Shown: one piece after another, positions 9,339-30,606 of the stretch
How positions within the stretch are numbered: the stretch's first letter is position 1
Layout: each line of letters starts with the position of its first letter
Assembly (NCBI GenBank): GCA_021740085.1
Contig: JAIPAL010000007.1
Span: 1 to 51,843 of the forward strand
DNA length: 51,843 nucleotides
Source of the DNA: Crocinitomicaceae bacterium
GTDB taxonomy: Bacteria > Bacteroidota > Bacteroidia > Flavobacteriales_D > Crocinitomicaceae
Reading direction: 5' to 3'
Program-made: the position numbers and the translations under genes
Notes under the pieces: generated by a model
The model's input: only the letters and a program-made list of their open reading frames with translations
The model's database searches: none
What the model was told of the DNA's origin: nothing

Positions 9339-9674
9339 TTAATACATCAAACTTTTCTTAGCGGAATTTCTCCAACCGGCATAAGATTCGCGGTCTACAA
9401 AATAAATTTTTATATCCGCATAGGACTCCCTATCTACGAAAAATATTTTTTTTTGAGCATATGATTCACGATCTACAAAAAACCATTTACCATCATTTTT
9501 GCCCGCATAACTTTCGCGATCCACTTTATAAACTAATAAATCAGCGTAGCTCTCACGATCAACAACAAATACTTTTACATCTGCATAAGACTCTCTGCTA
9601 ACTGCATATACCTTTTGAGCATTTGCCACTACAAACGTGAGTAAAAACGTTGCTAAAATCAATAATTTTCTCAT
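9339..9674 (-). CDS. Secreted 7(1) septoil-knot / DUF6150-like repeat protein, copy A
   Basis: 111 residues: a signal peptide (MRKLLILATFLLTFVVANA, cut before QKVYAV), then six repeats of about 13 residues, each with a beta strand followed by (S/D)RESYA, and a C-terminal tail WRNSAKKSLMY. The periodic V-x-RESYAD pattern is, as I recall, that of Pfam DUF6150, renamed the 7(1) septoil knot domain because its small all-beta fold is predicted, and I believe also shown experimentally, to be a 7-crossing knot. Function is unknown. The six RESYA motifs are spelled by six different 15-base sequences. The gene has the same length as copies B and C, shares its upstream leader with B, and would be exported to the periplasm. 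Confidence 0.75.
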   Translation of the reverse strand: MRKLLILATFLLTFVVANAQKVYAVSRESYADVKVFVVDRESYADLLVYKVDRESYAGKNDGKWFFVDRESYAQKKIFFVDRESYADIKIYFVDRESYAGWRNSAKKSLMY

Positions 9675-10283: not shown

Positions 10284-10619
10284 TTAATACATCAAACTTT
10301 TCTTAGCGGAATTTTTCCAACCAGCATAAGCTTGATTATCTACAAAAAATATTTTCAAATCTGCATAGGCTTGATTACTCACGAAAAATATTTTCTTGTC
10401 AGCGTATGCTTGATTATCTACGAAGTACCATTTACCATCATTTTTCCCTGCATAAGCTTGATTGGATACTTTATAAACCAACAAATCGGCATAGGCCTGG
10501 TTATCCACAACAAATACTTTAACATCAGCATAAGCTTGATTTGAAACACTAAATATTTTCTGTGCATTGGCAAACCCAAGCGTGAGCAACATAGTTGCTA
10601 AAATCAATAAATTTCTCAT
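10284..10619 (-). CDS. Secreted 7(1) septoil-knot / DUF6150-like repeat protein, copy B (NQAYA type)
   Basis: 111 residues when started at the ATG at 10617-10619 (MRNLLILATMLLTLGFANA signal peptide). The frame continues to an ATG at 10688, but that extension is basic, runs over the conserved leader and would bury the signal peptide. The mature chain has six repeats aligned one-to-one with copies A and C, yet every RESYA is replaced by NQAYA, while the strands between (VKVFVV, LLVYKV, KNDGKWYFV, KKIFFV, LKIFFV) and the tail KNSAKKSLMY are kept. The residue before each motif alternates Ser, Asp, Ser, Asp, Ser, Asp. Same fold assignment as copy A, by inference. Confidence 0.75.
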   Translation of the reverse strand: MRNLLILATMLLTLGFANAQKIFSVSNQAYADVKVFVVDNQAYADLLVYKVSNQAYAGKNDGKWYFVDNQAYADKKIFFVSNQAYADLKIFFVDNQAYAGWKNSAKKSLMY

Positions 10620-10631
10620 ATTTTTAAATTT

Positions 10632-10683
10632 TAAATTTTCTCCTACTCTTATCGATTTTCGGATTACTCGGTGTATTTTCCGC
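10632..10683 (-). repeat. Conserved 52-nt leader upstream of knot gene B
   Basis: Exact copy of 9688-9739, 12 bases upstream of the copy B start. It lies in the 103-base gap between B and C, so B may have its own expression signal even if C is transcribed through it. Confidence 0.85.
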
Positions 10684-10722
10684 TGCAAAAGAGTTTGCTT
10701 TTGGAAAAAAAGAAAACTTAGT

Positions 10723-11058
10723 TTAATACATCAAACTTTTCTTAGATGTATTTCTCCAACCGGCATAAGACTCACGGTTAACAAAATAAATTTTAATATC
10801 TGCATAGGACTCTCGATCGACGAAATATATTTTTTTTTGAGCATATGATTCACGGTCAACAAAAAACCATTTACCATCATTTTTACCTGCATAGCTTTCG
10901 CGATCCACTTTATAAACTAATAAATCAGCGTAGCTCTCACGATCGACTACAAATACTTTCACATCCGCATAAGACTCACGGTCAACGGAATAAATTTTTT
11001 GAGCATTAACAGCTCCAAATGTGAGCAACATAGTTGCTAAAATCAATGAATTTTTCAT
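10723..11058 (-). CDS. Secreted 7(1) septoil-knot / DUF6150-like repeat protein, copy C
   Basis: 111 residues, with signal peptide MKNSLILATMLLTFGAVNA cut before QKIYSV. Six repeats carry RESYA as in copy A, with the final one preceded by Asn instead of Asp, and the tail is WRNTSKKSLMY. Codons at repeats 2 and 4 are the same as in copy A, showing that the repeats correspond position by position and that A and C share an ancestor with repeats already diverged. The gene is upstream of copy B on the same strand, and its upstream region differs from the leader shared by A and B. Function unknown; expected periplasmic or outer surface. Confidence 0.75.
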   Translation of the reverse strand: MKNSLILATMLLTFGAVNAQKIYSVDRESYADVKVFVVDRESYADLLVYKVDRESYAGKNDGKWFFVDRESYAQKKIYFVDRESYADIKIYFVNRESYAGWRNTSKKSLMY

Positions 11059-25395: not shown

Positions 25396-26079
25396 ATGAC
25401 TACAGATAAGAATCCCAACCATTTCTATTCCAGCGACGATTTCAAAGAGTTATTGTTTTTAGAAGAGCATGTTGCCACCATTAAAAAGGAACTTTTAGAC
25501 CTTTTAAACCTACGTAATGATAATTGGCTGAGCACCTTCCCCAGCTATGTAAATTCAAGCGAACAACATGCTTGGCAGGTATTCACCTTTTCCTTTTTTA
25601 CCATGGAAAATACACTGAATCAGCACACTTGTCCGATAACAAGTTCAATTATCAATAAAATTCCAGCACTTATTTCATGTGATTTTTCACGATTAAAGAA
25701 AAAAACACACATAGCACCCCATAAAGGGTATTCCAAAATGATATTACGATGTCACTTACCCCTACTAATTCCCAATGGATCCGCCTGTAAACTACGAGTT
25801 GGCGATGAAACAAGACATTGGGAAGAAGGGAAACTGTTAATTTTTGATGATTCCTATGAGCATGAGGCGTGGAATGAGAGCGATGAAGATCGTTTTATCT
25901 TAATGTTTGATATCCCGAACCCTTTGTGGGGATATTCGGCTGAACAAATAGCGCGCTATAAAATAGAAAACTTAGATGACCCCTTCCTACTCCAATTTGC
26001 AAGTAAGGAGGAATGGCTTTCGGCTTATGAGCAGCGAAAACTCCCCATTGAAAAAATTAATTTTCGAACAAACGATTAA
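25396..26079 (+). CDS. Aspartyl/asparaginyl beta-hydroxylase-family 2-oxoglutarate dioxygenase
   Basis: 227 residues. The jelly-roll iron site is visible: His120 in MILRCHLPL and His156 in FDDSYEHEAWN, with Arg166 (DRFILMFDI) in the place that binds 2-oxoglutarate. The family includes AspH and LpxO, the enzyme that 2-hydroxylates lipid A acyl chains, but this protein lacks the membrane segment of LpxO. It has no signal peptide, so it is cytoplasmic. It is convergent with the acyl-ACP/glycan operon and overlaps the GNAT gene by 23 bases. A role in hydroxylating the acyl group made by that operon is tempting but unproven; a protein or small-molecule substrate is equally possible. Confidence 0.85.
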   Translation: MTTDKNPNHFYSSDDFKELLFLEEHVATIKKELLDLLNLRNDNWLSTFPSYVNSSEQHAWQVFTFSFFTMENTLNQHTCPITSSIINKIPALISCDFSRLKKKTHIAPHKGYSKMILRCHLPLLIPNGSACKLRVGDETRHWEEGKLLIFDDSYEHEAWNESDEDRFILMFDIPNPLWGYSAEQIARYKIENLDDPFLLQFASKEEWLSAYEQRKLPIEKINFRTND

Positions 26080-26665
26080 TTTGAGTTAAATTATTGCTTG
26101 CTTTTTCTCCCTGAAGAATCAAGGCGTCATCCCCTTTAGAAAGTTTAGACAACGTTGACTTGAGCAAATTATATTTCTTAAAGAAATCCGCTTTATCTAA
26201 GACCATTCTGATTTCATTAGCATCCTCGAATTCAATTTTATACCCCAACTGTCGATTATAAGAAATGGCACTTTTATTTTGTGCTTGAACACGAACGATT
26301 GACCGATTGATTTCCAATTTAGTAAAAATAAAATTGAGAAAACAAATAGAAGCCATCACACTGGCCCATGTTTCAAGGTAGTCATTCTCACCAATAAAAA
26401 TCCCTCCTTCTCCAATTCCTTCTTCCTCCGAAAAGTTTTTGGCATGAATTAAACCCACCTTTTTGCCTAAATATTCAATAATAAAGTAATAGTTGAAAGC
26501 ATTGTTTATGGAATGAAACCAAGTCAATTGATCCTTTTCCTGCAAGAGATCCTGAATAAACATGTTTTTCCTAACCCCATCACTGTTTCTCCACCTCAGA
26601 ATTAATCCTAAATCCGTTGGTTGAACTCGAATCAATCGAACATCATATTGTGCAACAATTAACAC
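26057..26665 (-). CDS. GNAT acyltransferase, PseH-like
   Basis: About 202 residues from a GTG at 26663-26665, which overlaps the stop of the glycosyltransferase gene. The frame is open to an ATG at 26749, but that extension lies wholly inside the upstream gene and is not family-like. After the start, VRLIRVQPTDLGLILRWRN and GVRKNMFIQDLL, then LTWFHSI, VGLIHAKNF and the acetyl-CoA-fold end VQAQNKSAISYNRQLGYKI match the RimJ/PseH branch. PseH N-acetylates a 4-amino sugar nucleotide. As last gene of the KAS III-ACP operon, it may transfer an acyl group from the carrier protein to an amino sugar (inference). Confidence 0.8.
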   Translation of the reverse strand: MLIVAQYDVRLIRVQPTDLGLILRWRNSDGVRKNMFIQDLLQEKDQLTWFHSINNAFNYYFIIEYLGKKVGLIHAKNFSEEEGIGEGGIFIGENDYLETWASVMASICFLNFIFTKLEINRSIVRVQAQNKSAISYNRQLGYKIEFEDANEIRMVLDKADFFKKYNLLKSTLSKLSKGDDALILQGEKASNNLTQINRLFEN

Positions 26666-27567
26666 GACTTTTCTGCTACATGAAACAATGGTTTTTGGTT
26701 TGTTTTTAGCAATAAATGCCTTAAATACATGGCAATAATTCCAATACAAGTAATGATCATTCCCGTTGAGAATAAAATACTTACGATTAACGAAGTATAG
26801 CCATCTACTTCAATTTTTCCAAAATATTTTTTATAGAGAATAAATCCTCCAAAAATGAAATTAATCAGCGCCAGCAGAAAACCAAAAAAAGTGACTAATC
26901 GAAGAGGAATCGCCGATGAAAAAAGCATGATATTGATGGTGGTTAAGATCAAGCCCGGTAATTTATATCTACTAATCGATGATTTATTGTCACTGCGATT
27001 AATGGGTACAAACTCGATGGACTTAGTATACCAAAGAATCAATTCATCAATAAATGAAAACTGATGATTACTAGAAACAATCTTTCTTGCCAATTCGCCC
27101 TCTATCAATCGAAAACTACTTCCCTGCCCCCTATTTTTACCATTTAATCGAGAAACAAATCGGTAAAGCGTTTTCATGGAACGAATCAAAAAGGAATCAA
27201 CAGAGGGAAAAGTACCATAAACTATCGCCGCACTAGTTAGTTTTTGATGCTCAATCATTTTCATCGCCTCACTCGGATGAATTTCCCTGTCATCGTCTAG
27301 GGTAATAACATATTTTCCCTTTGAAAATTGAATCCCACATAAGGTAGCTGGATGTTGTCCAAAATTCATTGATAAGCGCAACGCTGTAATAGTTTTATCG
27401 TTTTGACTGAGCGTGTGAATTACCTCCCACGTATTATCAGAACTTCCATCATCTACTAGAATAATTTCATGAGAAAAGTCGTGAAAAACAAGTGCAATAT
27501 CCTCACAAATTGAGGGAAGATCTCCACTGTTATTAAAAGTTGGAATTACAAAACTAAACTCAATCAT
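26659..27567 (-). CDS. Family 2 glycosyltransferase, polyprenyl-phosphate type (GtrB/ArnC/DPM1-like)
   Basis: 302 residues. A GT-A domain is at residues 1-210 (SFVIPTFNNSGDL, ILVDDGSSDNTW, and the metal-binding VITLDDDREIHPSEA). Two C-terminal membrane helices (about 228-252 and 262-290, GMIITCIGIIAMYLRHLL) give the architecture of enzymes that load a sugar on polyprenyl phosphate at the cytoplasmic face. The start codon lies 36 bases downstream of the SDR gene and the 3' end overlaps the GNAT start, so it is in one operon. The sugar donor is unknown; a 4-amino sugar as in ArnC would fit the neighbouring acyltransferase. Confidence 0.88.
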   Translation of the reverse strand: MIEFSFVIPTFNNSGDLPSICEDIALVFHDFSHEIILVDDGSSDNTWEVIHTLSQNDKTITALRLSMNFGQHPATLCGIQFSKGKYVITLDDDREIHPSEAMKMIEHQKLTSAAIVYGTFPSVDSFLIRSMKTLYRFVSRLNGKNRGQGSSFRLIEGELARKIVSSNHQFSFIDELILWYTKSIEFVPINRSDNKSSISRYKLPGLILTTINIMLFSSAIPLRLVTFFGFLLALINFIFGGFILYKKYFGKIEVDGYTSLIVSILFSTGMIITCIGIIAMYLRHLLLKTNQKPLFHVAEKSC

Positions 27568-27603
27568 GCGACGGATATCTTGAACGAAGATACATTAAAA
27601 GAA

Positions 27604-28347
27604 TTATTTCTTACTGTTTAATAACAAACCGCCGTCCAAGGTTAGCACAGAACCTGTCATCCAAGAGGCTTGATCACTTAGCAGAAAAGCCGATGCGTGA
27701 GCCACATCCATTGGTTTTCCAATTCCTAATGGATACGAACTCAAAATGCCTAACAGTTCTGTTTCCGAAAGCGCATTTTTAGTTTTCTCAAACATCTCAG
27801 TGTCAACAAGAGCAGCAGAAATACAATTAGAACGAACCCCTTTTGAGGCAAACTCTAAGGCGATGGAACGAGAAAAAGATTCTAAAGCAGCTTTGGATGC
27901 GGCGTATAAACTTCCACCATTGTAAGGATGTAAGGCTGAAACAGAAGACATAAAAACAAAGGATGATGCATTATTAACCTTTTTATGTTGCATTAATTTA
28001 CTAATGAGTAGACAGGCACTATTAAAATTCACCGAAAACATAGTATCAATATGTTTGACCTGAATATATTTTATAGGAAAAGGTTCAATAATTCCGGCGC
28101 AATGTACCCAACCATCAATTGATGGCAAGGCCTTCACTAAATCATCTATATCCTTTTCTAATGTTAAATCAGCTTGAAAAAATTCTGACTCGATACTAAG
28201 TTGTTTGGACACCTCAATTAAGCGATCTATATTTCGACCCGTTATGCAAACCTTAGCACCTAAATCCGAGCACAATTTCGCCACAGCAGAGCCAATACCT
28301 GCAGAAGCACCAGTTACCAGAATAGTTTTTCCTTTAAGATTAATCAT
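27604..28347 (-). CDS. Short-chain dehydrogenase/reductase (FabG-like)
   Basis: 247 residues, a typical single-domain SDR. The cofactor loop TGASAGIG is at residues 12-19, the HCAG motif (variant of NNAG) at 82-85, and the catalytic set Ser135 (FMSSVSA), Tyr148 and Lys152 (YAASK) is intact. The C-terminus has ASWMTGSVLTLDGG. It overlaps the upstream KAS III by 8 bases, so translation is coupled. Next to two KAS III enzymes and an ACP, a 3-ketoacyl-ACP reductase role is the most economical reading, giving a 3-hydroxyacyl group. A sugar reductase role cannot be excluded. Confidence 0.88.
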   Translation of the reverse strand: MINLKGKTILVTGASAGIGSAVAKLCSDLGAKVCITGRNIDRLIEVSKQLSIESEFFQADLTLEKDIDDLVKALPSIDGWVHCAGIIEPFPIKYIQVKHIDTMFSVNFNSACLLISKLMQHKKVNNASSFVFMSSVSALHPYNGGSLYAASKAALESFSRSIALEFASKGVRSNCISAALVDTEMFEKTKNALSETELLGILSSYPLGIGKPMDVAHASAFLLSDQASWMTGSVLTLDGGLLLNSKK

Positions 28348-29392
28348 ATTCTAACAATTTTGTAGCGACATTATGAGTGGATAAAAGTAAACTAGCCCAA
28401 GAAAAACCCACACCAAAACCGCAAAGCAATAGGCATAAGCGTTCCTTTTTCAACACTTCACTTAATTCTGAACAAAGCGTTAAAGGAATGGAGGCAGAAC
28501 TTGTATTTCCATATTTACCAATTGAACTTGGGCATTTTTCCTTCGGCAATTTCATTTTTTTTCGAATACTATCTGTGATCAATTGATTTGCCTGATGCAA
28601 CACGAGGTAATCAAGTTGCTCCGTTCTTAATTTTGATAAGTCGAGTACATTATTAATCGACTTAGGGACATTTTTCAGCGCAAAATTAAATACCGCCATG
28701 CCATCAATTGCCAAATGTTTTTTAGAGCGCACAACACCCGGTGCCACCTCAATATCTTGATCATCAAAACTTTGGTAAGGCATTCGAGAATGACCCGCCT
28801 CAATAATAATTGCATCAGCACCACTTCCATCCGTCCCTGCATCAAAAAACCAATCTTTTCCTTTGGCATCGTATTCCAGTAAAGTTGCTGAGCCTGCATC
28901 TCCAAAAAGAGGAAAGGCGGTTTTATCTTGTTCGTGCGTCGAAATGGTTGATTTATCACCAGCCAAAAGCAATACCTTTCTCAATCCACCCTGTTGCAGA
29001 TAACGATTAGCAAGGAGCAAACCATGAACGTATCCTGAACATCCTAAATTCACATCAAAAGCCATACAAGCCGTTGGCAATCCTAATTTATCTTGCAGAA
29101 TAGCTGCACTTGCCGGTAAAAAATAGTCGGGAGATTGCGTTACAAATACTAATAAATCTATTTCATGATGACAATTCATATCCTCCAAAAGCGACTGAGC
29201 AGCTTTGAAACACATATCTGAAGCAGTAACATTAGTTGCCGCAACTCTTCGCTCAATTATACCTGTTGTATTAGCGAACATTTTTGCTTCATCTTCCGAA
29301 AAATAAGGATAATCATGCGTTTTATACACCCTCTTAGGAATAACAGAATATATTGCTTTTACAGCAGTATGTTTAAGCCTTAGCTCCGCCAC
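28340..29392 (-). CDS. 3-oxoacyl-ACP synthase III family protein (first of two)
   Basis: 350 residues with the full thiolase-fold layout. The catalytic triad is present: Cys118 (DVNLGCSGYVHGL), His266 (LVLHQANQLI) and Asn296 (GKYGNTSSAS). The N-terminal TTGIIERRVA segment near residue 42, which in FabH lines the primer CoA pocket, is retained. KAS III enzymes condense an acyl-CoA primer with malonyl-ACP. Here the gene overlaps the ACP gene by 20 bases and the SDR by 8, inside a glycan-type operon rather than a fatty-acid operon, so it probably serves a dedicated carrier. Sequence is not close to housekeeping FabH at the ends. Confidence 0.88.
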   Translation of the reverse strand: MAELRLKHTAVKAIYSVIPKRVYKTHDYPYFSEDEAKMFANTTGIIERRVAATNVTASDMCFKAAQSLLEDMNCHHEIDLLVFVTQSPDYFLPASAAILQDKLGLPTACMAFDVNLGCSGYVHGLLLANRYLQQGGLRKVLLLAGDKSTISTHEQDKTAFPLFGDAGSATLLEYDAKGKDWFFDAGTDGSGADAIIIEAGHSRMPYQSFDDQDIEVAPGVVRSKKHLAIDGMAVFNFALKNVPKSINNVLDLSKLRTEQLDYLVLHQANQLITDSIRKKMKLPKEKCPSSIGKYGNTSSASIPLTLCSELSEVLKKERLCLLLCGFGVGFSWASLLLSTHNVATKLLEYD

Positions 29393-29624
29393 CGTTTAAT
29401 TTTAAGCGTGTAATATCAAATAAATCGTTAATGGTGACACACGATTTCAATTCTTCTCCATTTAGAAGAACATCATACTTTGAATCAATAAGTGCAACAA
29501 AAATAAGCGCATGCATACTACTCCACCCCTCCATATCACGAAACACGCTATTCGGAGTTACATCTCCTGGATTTAGATTGTCAAACTCTTCTTCAATCGC
29601 TGTAATAAAATCATCTATTTCCAT
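29373..29624 (-). CDS. Dedicated acyl carrier protein
   Basis: 83 residues, acidic N-terminal helix MEIDDFITAIEEEF, then DVTPNSVFRDMEGWSSMHAL. The second Ser of WSSM (Ser36) aligns with the phosphopantetheine serine of the DSL motif. It differs clearly from housekeeping AcpP, resembling the stand-alone carriers found in secondary-metabolite and polysaccharide loci. It lies between two KAS III genes (19-base gap on one side, 20-base overlap on the other), the strongest sign that the three work together. Confidence 0.85.
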   Translation of the reverse strand: MEIDDFITAIEEEFDNLNPGDVTPNSVFRDMEGWSSMHALIFVALIDSKYDVLLNGEELKSCVTINDLFDITRLKLNGGGAKA

Positions 29625-29643
29625 AAGTCAAATATACATTTTT

Positions 29644-30606
29644 CTACCATTCAATTACGGTTCCAATACAAGAAAAACCAATCCCAAAACCGAGTAACAC
29701 TATCTTATCACCTTTTTTAAATGTGCCTAGCGCTGCTGCTGTTTCTAGTGCAATGGGAATAGAACATGACACAGTATTGCCAACTTCTTCAAAATTAGAA
29801 ATGAATTTATGCTCGGGAATATTGCATTTTCGCTGAAGGGATTTCAAAATCATTTCACTTGCTTGATGAAAAATGAAAAAATCTATTTCTGAAATTGTTA
29901 AGCCATTTTTCACTAATGTCTGTTCCAAAAACCCAGGAATTTCCTTTAAAGCAAAGCGCAGCACTTCCAGCCCATTCATTTCGATACGTCCAAAAGACAA
30001 TTGATTCACTTGATCGGAATATTTATTTATCCATGCCTCATCTATTGGATGGCGACCTCCTCCACGTTCCACCTTTAAAAAATCAAATCCATTCCCAAAA
30101 GTTGCAAATGTAAACTTTCCAATGGCTTTAGTATTATTTTCCGAAACAACAATAGCGGCACCAGCATCACCAAAAATCGATCGCAATACGCTATCCTCAC
30201 TATGGATTGCTTTTGAAGGCACTTCCCCTAATAAGATTAACACATTCCTTGCATTCCCGGAAGAAATCATAGCATCTGCAACACTTAAACTATACAAAAA
30301 TCCCGAACAGCCTTGAGGTAAATCAATTGTACCACAAGTTGAAGACAATCCTAATTTATGATGCAAGACACTTGCAGTTGTTGGCGAATTATAATCTAAA
30401 ACAAGCGTTGAAACAATAAGAAAATCAATTTCGCGCTTATCTATTTCTGGATATTCATTGAAGAGCTTTAATACAGCTTTAAAGGCAAGATCAGAACCAA
30501 TTTCATCTTGACTGGCATGATAACAATTGTTACTATTGTTTTCAATAGAAACTGGTAGTCCAGGAAGATAATGACTTATTTTTCTAATTTTAGCAAACAA
30601 TTTCAA
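29644..30606 (-). CDS. 3-oxoacyl-ACP synthase III family protein (second), shortened N-terminus
   Basis: 320 residues. The triad is intact: Cys100 (DLPQGCSGFLYSL), His247 (IFHQASEMIL) and Asn277 (EEVGNTVSCS). The segment that carries the WxxxRTGI-type motif in FabH is missing: YLPG at residue 14 is only about 25 residues from the helix SDLAFKAVL, against about 45 in its neighbour. That region binds the adenine of CoA in FabH, so this protein may take an ACP-bound or different primer, or may act as an acyltransferase/esterase rather than a condensing enzyme. It is the first gene of the operon, and the 127-base upstream gap has no perfect TAnnTTTG box on this strand. Confidence 0.85.
   Translation of the reverse strand: MKLFAKIRKISHYLPGLPVSIENNSNNCYHASQDEIGSDLAFKAVLKLFNEYPEIDKREIDFLIVSTLVLDYNSPTTASVLHHKLGLSSTCGTIDLPQGCSGFLYSLSVADAMISSGNARNVLILLGEVPSKAIHSEDSVLRSIFGDAGAAIVVSENNTKAIGKFTFATFGNGFDFLKVERGGGRHPIDEAWINKYSDQVNQLSFGRIEMNGLEVLRFALKEIPGFLEQTLVKNGLTISEIDFFIFHQASEMILKSLQRKCNIPEHKFISNFEEVGNTVSCSIPIALETAAALGTFKKGDKIVLLGFGIGFSCIGTVIEW

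Follow-up and report, generated by a model that had tools for sequence, protein, structure and literature searches.

A unit of six genes on the minus strand of contig JAIPAL010000007.1, from a Crocinitomicaceae bacterium (GenBank assembly GCA_021740085.1), encodes two ketosynthases of the KAS III type (KAS1 and KAS2), a dedicated acyl carrier protein (ACP), a short-chain ketoreductase (SDR), a glycosyltransferase of the GT2 family and an N-acyltransferase of the GNAT family. The whole stretch analysed, positions 1 to 51,843 of this contig, is referred to as the window. We give an even chance to the reading that the unit makes an acylated amino sugar and loads it onto polyprenyl phosphate, and that a TMTC-like glycosyltransferase of the GT-C type, encoded elsewhere in the genome, transfers the sugar to protein. 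The proposal builds on gene identities, on the predicted folds of the GNAT and GT-C enzymes, on gene order and on co-occurrence across genomes. The families are individually known and their combination is new; no description of a combined acyl-ACP/GNAT/GT2/GT-C system was found in the open-access literature, most subscription journals lying outside the scope of the search.

Organisation and conservation of the gene unit

The genes of the unit and the gene next to it are located as follows:

29644..30606, minus strand: KAS1, KAS III-type ketosynthase, 320 residues from a TTG codon, start uncertain (PF08545/PF08541)
29373..29624, minus strand: ACP, dedicated acyl carrier protein, 83 residues (PF00550, below cut-off)
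28340..29392, minus strand: KAS2, KAS III-type ketosynthase, 350 residues, GTG start (PF08545/PF08541)
27604..28347, minus strand: SDR, short-chain ketoreductase, 247 residues (PF13561/PF00106)
26659..27567, minus strand: GT2, polyprenyl-phosphate glycosyltransferase of the GtrB/ArnC kind, 302 residues (PF00535)
26057..26665, minus strand: GNAT, N-acyltransferase, 202 residues from the GTG at 26665 (PF13302)
25396..26079, plus strand: AspH, Asp/Asn beta-hydroxylase-family dioxygenase (PF05118, E 1.6e-44)

Transcribed in the order KAS1-ACP-KAS2-SDR-GT2-GNAT, the six open reading frames (ORFs) are closely packed, with a gap of 19 bases between KAS1 and ACP, overlaps of 20 bases between ACP and KAS2 and of 8 between KAS2 and SDR, a gap of 36 between SDR and GT2, and an overlap of 7 between GT2 and GNAT if the latter starts at the GTG at 26665. 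This GNAT start is favoured by the alignment of orthologues and is still uncertain; the longest ORF, from the TTG at 26749, would raise the overlap to 91 bases. An initial annotation of the window had described six compact minus-strand ORFs, all of which are present, and the family names that it gave them were confirmed by Pfam and NCBIfam. AspH is convergent with GNAT, their 3' ends overlapping by 23 bases. Spacing and conservation suggest that the six genes form a single transcript; promoter- and terminator-like matches in the window were no more numerous than in shuffled sequence.

Searching for GT2 across 150 genomes, with E 1e-40 as the upper limit for a carrier, yielded 39 carriers, the window's genome included. 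The gene maps of carrier loci miss some ACPs lying under opposite-strand ORFs, and 38 loci were recounted by tblastn, the window locus being the 39th. The same gene order, which the initial annotation had proposed to look for, recurred: KAS III-ACP-KAS III-SDR-GT2-GNAT was complete in 23 of the 39, six of these genomes belonging to two other families of the same taxonomic order, and ran up to the contig end in four more (L031, L037, L053 and L065). GT2-GNAT was separated from the KAS genes in 11 genomes, and at one locus (L048) merely 230 bases precede GT2, leaving the order unreadable. GNAT adjoins GT2 in 39/39; in L041 the contig ends there and holds just a fragment of GNAT. The six-gene order is confirmed to be conserved beyond chance.

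Ketosynthase and carrier genes standing apart from GT2 and GNAT, which the initial annotation would have counted against a common module, do occur, both in the 11 split genomes and in 18 of the 80 loci described below, where PglD stands in place of the GT2 and GNAT pair. Yet in nine of the 11 split genomes a close KAS2 is located on a different contig, beside KAS1, SDR or both, so the two halves still travel together, and co-occurrence is a better criterion for the module than adjacency. The KAS2 of genome G001, likewise on another contig (L120, ~40% identity), is a possible paralogue.

Co-occurrence with a TMTC-like glycosyltransferase

The TMTC-like GT-C of the window's genome lies outside the window (L081:10810-13239, contig C18) and is followed by two sulfotransferase genes that have a single gene of the opposite strand between them. 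A TMTC-like GT-C of ~740-880 residues, with tetratricopeptide repeats (TPR), directly precedes KAS1 in eight genomes from two other families of the order (L054, L055, L058, L061, L062, L067, L096 and L097). Across the 150 genomes, GT-C was detected in 38/39 GT2 carriers and in 4/111 non-carriers; the carrier in which it was not found, G062, is 82% complete, and the four non-carriers are G067, G086 and, with loci truncated by the end of a contig, G144 and G109. Among 50 near-complete genomes of the genus (at least 90% complete, a set that the window's genome, at 87.6%, does not enter), GT2, KAS2 and GT-C occur together in 20/20 and are jointly absent in 30/30. The best-E limits applied were 1e-40 for GT2, 1.1e-27 for TMTC, 1e-50 for AspH, 2.3e-20 for sulfotransferase and 1e-70 for KAS2; Fisher tests on co-occurrence ignore ancestry. 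A tree built from ThrS (61 rows) requires six changes in GT2 presence and seven in GT-C presence, three of the GT2 changes being forced by supported branches; of the three supported independent pairs, an average of 2.9 have GT-C changing with GT2, and 3.0 have KAS2 doing so.

The fold was modelled for the protein of L169, a relative, and not for the window genome's own copy (predicted local distance difference test score, pLDDT, 85.5). Residues 18-457 align with STT3 (8age; Z 20.1, 342 residues, root-mean-square deviation 4.4) and residues 22-461 with Pmt (6p25; Z 18.0, 350 residues, deviation 4.9). The model thus combines a GT-C membrane fold with a C-terminal TPR part; when the whole model was submitted to Foldseek, the 50 matches listed were TPR and other repeat proteins, and in the later comparison STT3 and Pmt stood among TPR proteins. 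In Pfam, the L057 protein exceeds the PMT_2 cut-off (29.9 against 26.1 bits) and the window genome's copy, at 22.6, stays under it; TMTC_DUF1736 is matched at E 0.01 by 6/20 TMTC-like members. The DD and YRP motifs are invariant in all 20 of these sequences. The human O-mannosyltransferases TMTC1-4 likewise have a GT-C membrane half followed by TPR, with roles in binding metal and donor assigned to its DD and YRP motifs, and use a sugar linked to a monophosphate lipid; full-length prokaryotic TMTC homologues exist and are typically not yet well characterised (PMC7801869). The enzyme studied here differs from the human ones in being bacterial, in its predicted donor, an amino sugar bearing an acyl group, and in falling below the Pfam TMTC cut-off.

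Beside GT-C in the window's genome, and in the opposite direction, L081:6333-9826 encodes an SDR, a weak GNAT match (PF13480), a weak polysaccharide deacetylase match and an AAC(3)-like acetyltransferase, a block that recurs in several members of the genus.

Identity of GT2 and GNAT and the nature of the acceptor

GT2 is a near full-length homologue of characterised polyprenyl-phosphate glycosyltransferases of the GtrB/ArnC kind: residues 2-298 of 302 align with residues 26-327 of sll0501 (5eke; E 1.4e-27), known as GtrB, and residues 4-297 with ArnC (9hwj; E 9.2e-23). It scored below the NCBIfam equivalog cut-off for ArnC (86.9 against 529 bits). In the Arn pathway, ArnC, a GT2, places an N-blocked amino sugar on undecaprenyl phosphate and ArnT, a GT-C, donates it in the periplasm; the blocking group is formyl, and ArnT, which lacks a TPR domain, has lipid A as its acceptor. 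The pathway proposed here would share this succession of a GT2 and a GT-C and would differ in its ACP-derived acyl group and in a partner GT-C that carries TPR.

Enzymes of the ArnT and GtrC type donate lipid-linked sugars to lipid A, lipopolysaccharide core or glycolipids, and the relatives of sll0501 and ArnC belong to pathways whose final acceptor is a lipid or a polysaccharide. The likeness of GT2 to these two proteins favours a GT-C that donates the acyl-sugar to lipid A, lipopolysaccharide core or another glycolipid rather than to protein, as do the matches of AspH to the NCBIfam models of the lipid hydroxylases LpxO and OlsC, both below cut-off. The TPR repeats of GT-C and its match to the protein-glycosylating STT3 and Pmt speak against a lipid acceptor, which we regard as unlikely.

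For GNAT, whose model has a pLDDT of 96.2, the top fold match was PseH (4ri1; E 3.4e-12); SpeG polyamine enzymes followed, and FdhC came 13th. The FdhC product named in the structure listing, 3-hydroxybutanoylamino-dideoxygalactose, bears a short hydroxyacyl group on an amino sugar. It is plausible from the model that GNAT acts on a nucleotide amino sugar, as PseH and FdhC do; polyamine acceptors are compatible with the same fold.

A small-molecule pathway, in which GNAT would acylate an amino acid or a polyamine and sugar transfer would be a side branch of natural-product synthesis, agrees with the SpeG matches and with relatives from Bacteroidales whose loci are extended by B12-radical-SAM genes in tandem, AMP-ligases and sulfotransferases. 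It is improbable in our view, GT2 and GNAT remaining paired even in loci that lack KAS1, SDR or both, and GT2 travelling with a GT-C enzyme. Around the Bacteroidales-labelled loci L155, L172, L176, L180, L184, L185 and L188, B12-binding radical-SAM genes or AMP-ligases are found nearby, which points to heavier tailoring; Pfam was run on one representative per cluster.

Two classes of loci and comparison with known systems

Scanning genomes with KAS2 returned 586 relatives, of which the best 80 were kept as named loci, with no Flavobacterium psychrophilum record among these 80. By gene content they comprise 40 GT2+GNAT loci, 18 PglD loci and 22 others (10 with none of these genes, five with GT2 only, four with DegT only, two with GNAT without GT2 and one without a complete KAS2 ORF). 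The PglD class, in which one member per cluster was checked with Pfam, includes F. johnsoniae CI04 (L160) and F. defluvii (L179). PglD occurs in 0/40 GT2+GNAT loci, and TMTC, sulfotransferases and AspH occur in 0/18 PglD loci. GT-C lies within ~10 kb in 14/40 GT2+GNAT loci against 0/18 PglD loci (Fisher p 0.003, ancestry ignored), whereas a DegT aminotransferase is nearby in 16/18 PglD loci against 6/40 GT2+GNAT loci. The acyl module therefore serves two surface-glycan routes, through GNAT and GT2 or through PglD and DegT, and that of the window is the less known.

The closest precedent by gene content is the F. psychrophilum wfp cluster for the R1 O-polysaccharide, in which the ketosynthases wfpC and wfpE, the ACP wfpD, the reductase wfpF and the PglD-like wfpG are assigned to the 3,5-dihydroxyhexanoyl group of the O-antigen (PMC6519341). 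Both systems have a pair of ketosynthases, an ACP of their own, a ketoreductase and an acyltransferase, in the same order if the gene letters follow the map, and for both a 3,5-dihydroxyhexanoyl group on a 4-amino sugar is predicted. The wfp system has a PglD-like WfpG, and its sugar passes through the PglC-like WfpB into a Wzy-dependent O-antigen, whereas the window's unit has a GNAT acyltransferase, a GT2 of the GtrB/ArnC type and a link to a TMTC-like GT-C. A second precedent is the viosamine island of Pseudomonas syringae, where vioS, vioR, acp and vioB are described as providing the hydroxybutyryl-type group of viosamine on flagellin (PMC3927599). A KAS III, an ACP, a ketoreductase and an acyltransferase are again in common, and the product is an N-(3-hydroxy-1-oxobutyl) amino sugar on a protein glycan. 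The island differs in its single KAS III, its linked aminotransferase vioA and its 1,173-residue transferase vioT, and the seven genes listed for it comprise no GtrB-type GT2 and no GT-C; no VioA-like aminotransferase was found in the window's unit.

An O-antigen substituent system of this kind, with the acyl-sugar entering a surface polysaccharide by known routes, would account for a ketosynthase, ACP, ketosynthase and reductase content like that of wfpC-F and similar to vioS, vioR, acp and vioB, and the window's genome does hold sugar-aminotransferase loci, one of them beside a PglD-like gene by sequence. A GT2 of the GtrB/ArnC type is expected to yield a monophosphate-linked sugar and not the diphosphate primer of Wzx/Wzy systems. 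This expectation, together with the lack of PglD in all 40 GT2+GNAT loci and the lack of TMTC, sulfotransferases and AspH in all 18 PglD loci, makes this destination lower still in probability; it was the absence of PglD that led us to give up a normal O-antigen R-group cassette as the preferred reading.

Ketosynthases, reductase and predicted acyl chain

Turning to the acylated sugar of the preferred reading, the residues needed for building its chain are conserved. The catalytic Cys-His-Asn triad is kept in KAS1 (alignment of 31 rows) and in KAS2 (35 rows), which also retains the motifs GCSGY, HQAN and GNTSS and has KAS III enzymes as its nearest solved chains. SDR keeps TGxxxGIG, Ser and YxxxK, with Ser-Tyr-Lys conserved among orthologues. 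The ACP matches PF00550 weakly (E 0.0017; 19.0 bits against a cut-off of 20.8), and the carrier serine is present in 68/68 aligned ACPs.

That a short acyl chain would be built on the dedicated ACP is supported by a gene content like that of wfpC-F. Among the 40 GT2+GNAT loci, 19 have two KAS genes with SDR, 12 one KAS with SDR, eight one KAS without SDR and one two KAS without SDR, counting genes within 5 kb before GT2; L138 was scored as having one KAS by this rule, its second lying further upstream. A second KAS without SDR is thus almost never seen (Fisher p 0.02, ancestry not accounted for), which fits an order of action with KAS2 first, SDR second and KAS1 third, reduction preceding extension. 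Since both KAS and SDR are present in the window, the most likely product, judged from the families and the wfp precedent, is 3,5-dihydroxyhexanoyl-ACP. The same logic gives a testable rule: one KAS without a reductase predicts acetoacetyl sugars, one KAS with a reductase 3-hydroxybutyryl sugars, and two KAS with a reductase 3,5-dihydroxyhexanoyl sugars.

The KAS1 of the window lacks ~17 residues around the TGIxERR loop, which is kept in core FabH, in KAS2 and in most KAS1 orthologues. The loop is also missing in L032 and L033 and altered in L036; its loss as a family trait was rejected, most other orthologues retaining it.

AspH-family enzymes and sulfotransferases

AspH adjoins GNAT in 29/39 GT2 genomes, and the contig ends there in five of the other 10; in L054 an AspH gene lies a few genes off. 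The solved chain nearest to AspH is the Asp/Asn beta-hydroxylase 5apa, and, by sequence likeness, its target may be the acyl chain, as for OlsC and LpxO, or a protein. Sulfotransferases (PF13469) and extra AspH copies surround many units. APS kinase, which supplies 3'-phosphoadenosine-5'-phosphosulfate (PAPS), occurs in 19/20 near-complete genus genomes with GT2 and in 12/30 without it; as sulfotransferases require PAPS, this distribution is consistent with a sulfation step, of which the bias is no proof. Three to four AspH-family genes stand in a row in L053, L062 and L098, and L053 also has an MBOAT gene.

Proposed pathway

The pathway set out below is inferred as regards all substrates, the structure of the acyl group, the final acceptor and what AspH and the sulfotransferases do. 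KAS2 would first join a starter bound to CoA with malonyl carried by the dedicated ACP, after which SDR would reduce the keto group, KAS1 would add a further two-carbon unit and SDR would reduce again. GNAT would then take the acyl group from ACP and attach it to the amino group of an amino sugar in nucleotide-activated form, probably one of the 4-amino-6-deoxy type that the cell's general PseC-like aminotransferase pathway supplies, and GT2 would transfer the acylated sugar onto polyprenyl phosphate. After flipping, the TMTC-like GT-C would pass the sugar to a periplasmic acceptor, most likely Ser/Thr of exported proteins, and AspH-family dioxygenases and sulfotransferases may add hydroxyl and sulfate to the acyl chain or the sugar.

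Much of the outline given in the initial annotation stands, namely acyl-ACP synthesis (by the wfpC-F content), a GNAT nearest to the PseH fold and a GT2 of the polyprenyl-phosphate kind; GT-C, the sulfotransferases and the hydroxylases had been left out. The co-occurrence of these enzymes shifts the destination from the envelope or O-antigen unit assumed there towards protein or another periplasmic acceptor.

Several observations weigh against this pathway. The link between GT2 and GT-C, strong as it is, is in part shared ancestry, and the three independent pairs, too few for significance, give only p 0.25. GT-C occurs without GT2 in G067 and G086 and is nearby in only 14 of the 40 GT2+GNAT loci, whilst KAS2 was not found at E 1e-70 in three of the 39 carriers (G014, G052 and G065, genomes 85-87% complete). 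Window-type AspH is present in 30/39 GT2 genomes and missing from nine, and a sulfotransferase is present in 32/39 and missing from seven. A profile of the membrane half of the TMTC-like proteins gave no sequence match to solved chains, and scores of 18.6 and 24.8 bits leave the 27-bit cut-off of Pfam TMTC_DUF1736 unreached; the case for a protein acceptor consists of the likeness of the model to STT3 and Pmt and of the TPR domain. GNAT lies below the NCBIfam equivalog cut-off for PseH (48.5 against 93.1 bits; E 9.3e-13), and SpeG polyamine acetyltransferases match its fold nearly as well as PseH does. DegT is absent from the window's unit and scarce near its relatives, and with no linked aminotransferase the identity of the sugar is a guess. 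The PseC-like aminotransferase, encoded on contig C72 in the window's genome and present in 128/150 genomes at E 1e-60, does not track the unit, GT2 occurring without it in G003, G025, G052 and G110.

If true, the pathway would connect the chemistry of acyl-ACPs with a sugar donor of the monophosphate-lipid type and would provide prokaryotic TMTC homologues with a pathway. More tentatively, a protein O-glycosylation system widespread in Bacteroidota can be envisaged, in which a mini fatty-acid synthase would build a polyketide-like hydroxyacyl group and GNAT, GT2 and a TMTC-like GT-C would bring it, on an amino sugar, to exported proteins, AspH-family enzymes and sulfotransferases adding extra hydroxyl groups and sulfate. 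Such a system would supply a donor for bacterial TMTC-like enzymes, and its product would be a sulfated, acylated protein glycan.

Other features of the window

Three small minus-strand paralogues made of a short repeat lie at 9339-9674, 10284-10688 and 10723-11058. Two of them carry RESYA-type repeats and the middle one is of the NQAYA type throughout, as if the repeats inside each paralogue changed together.

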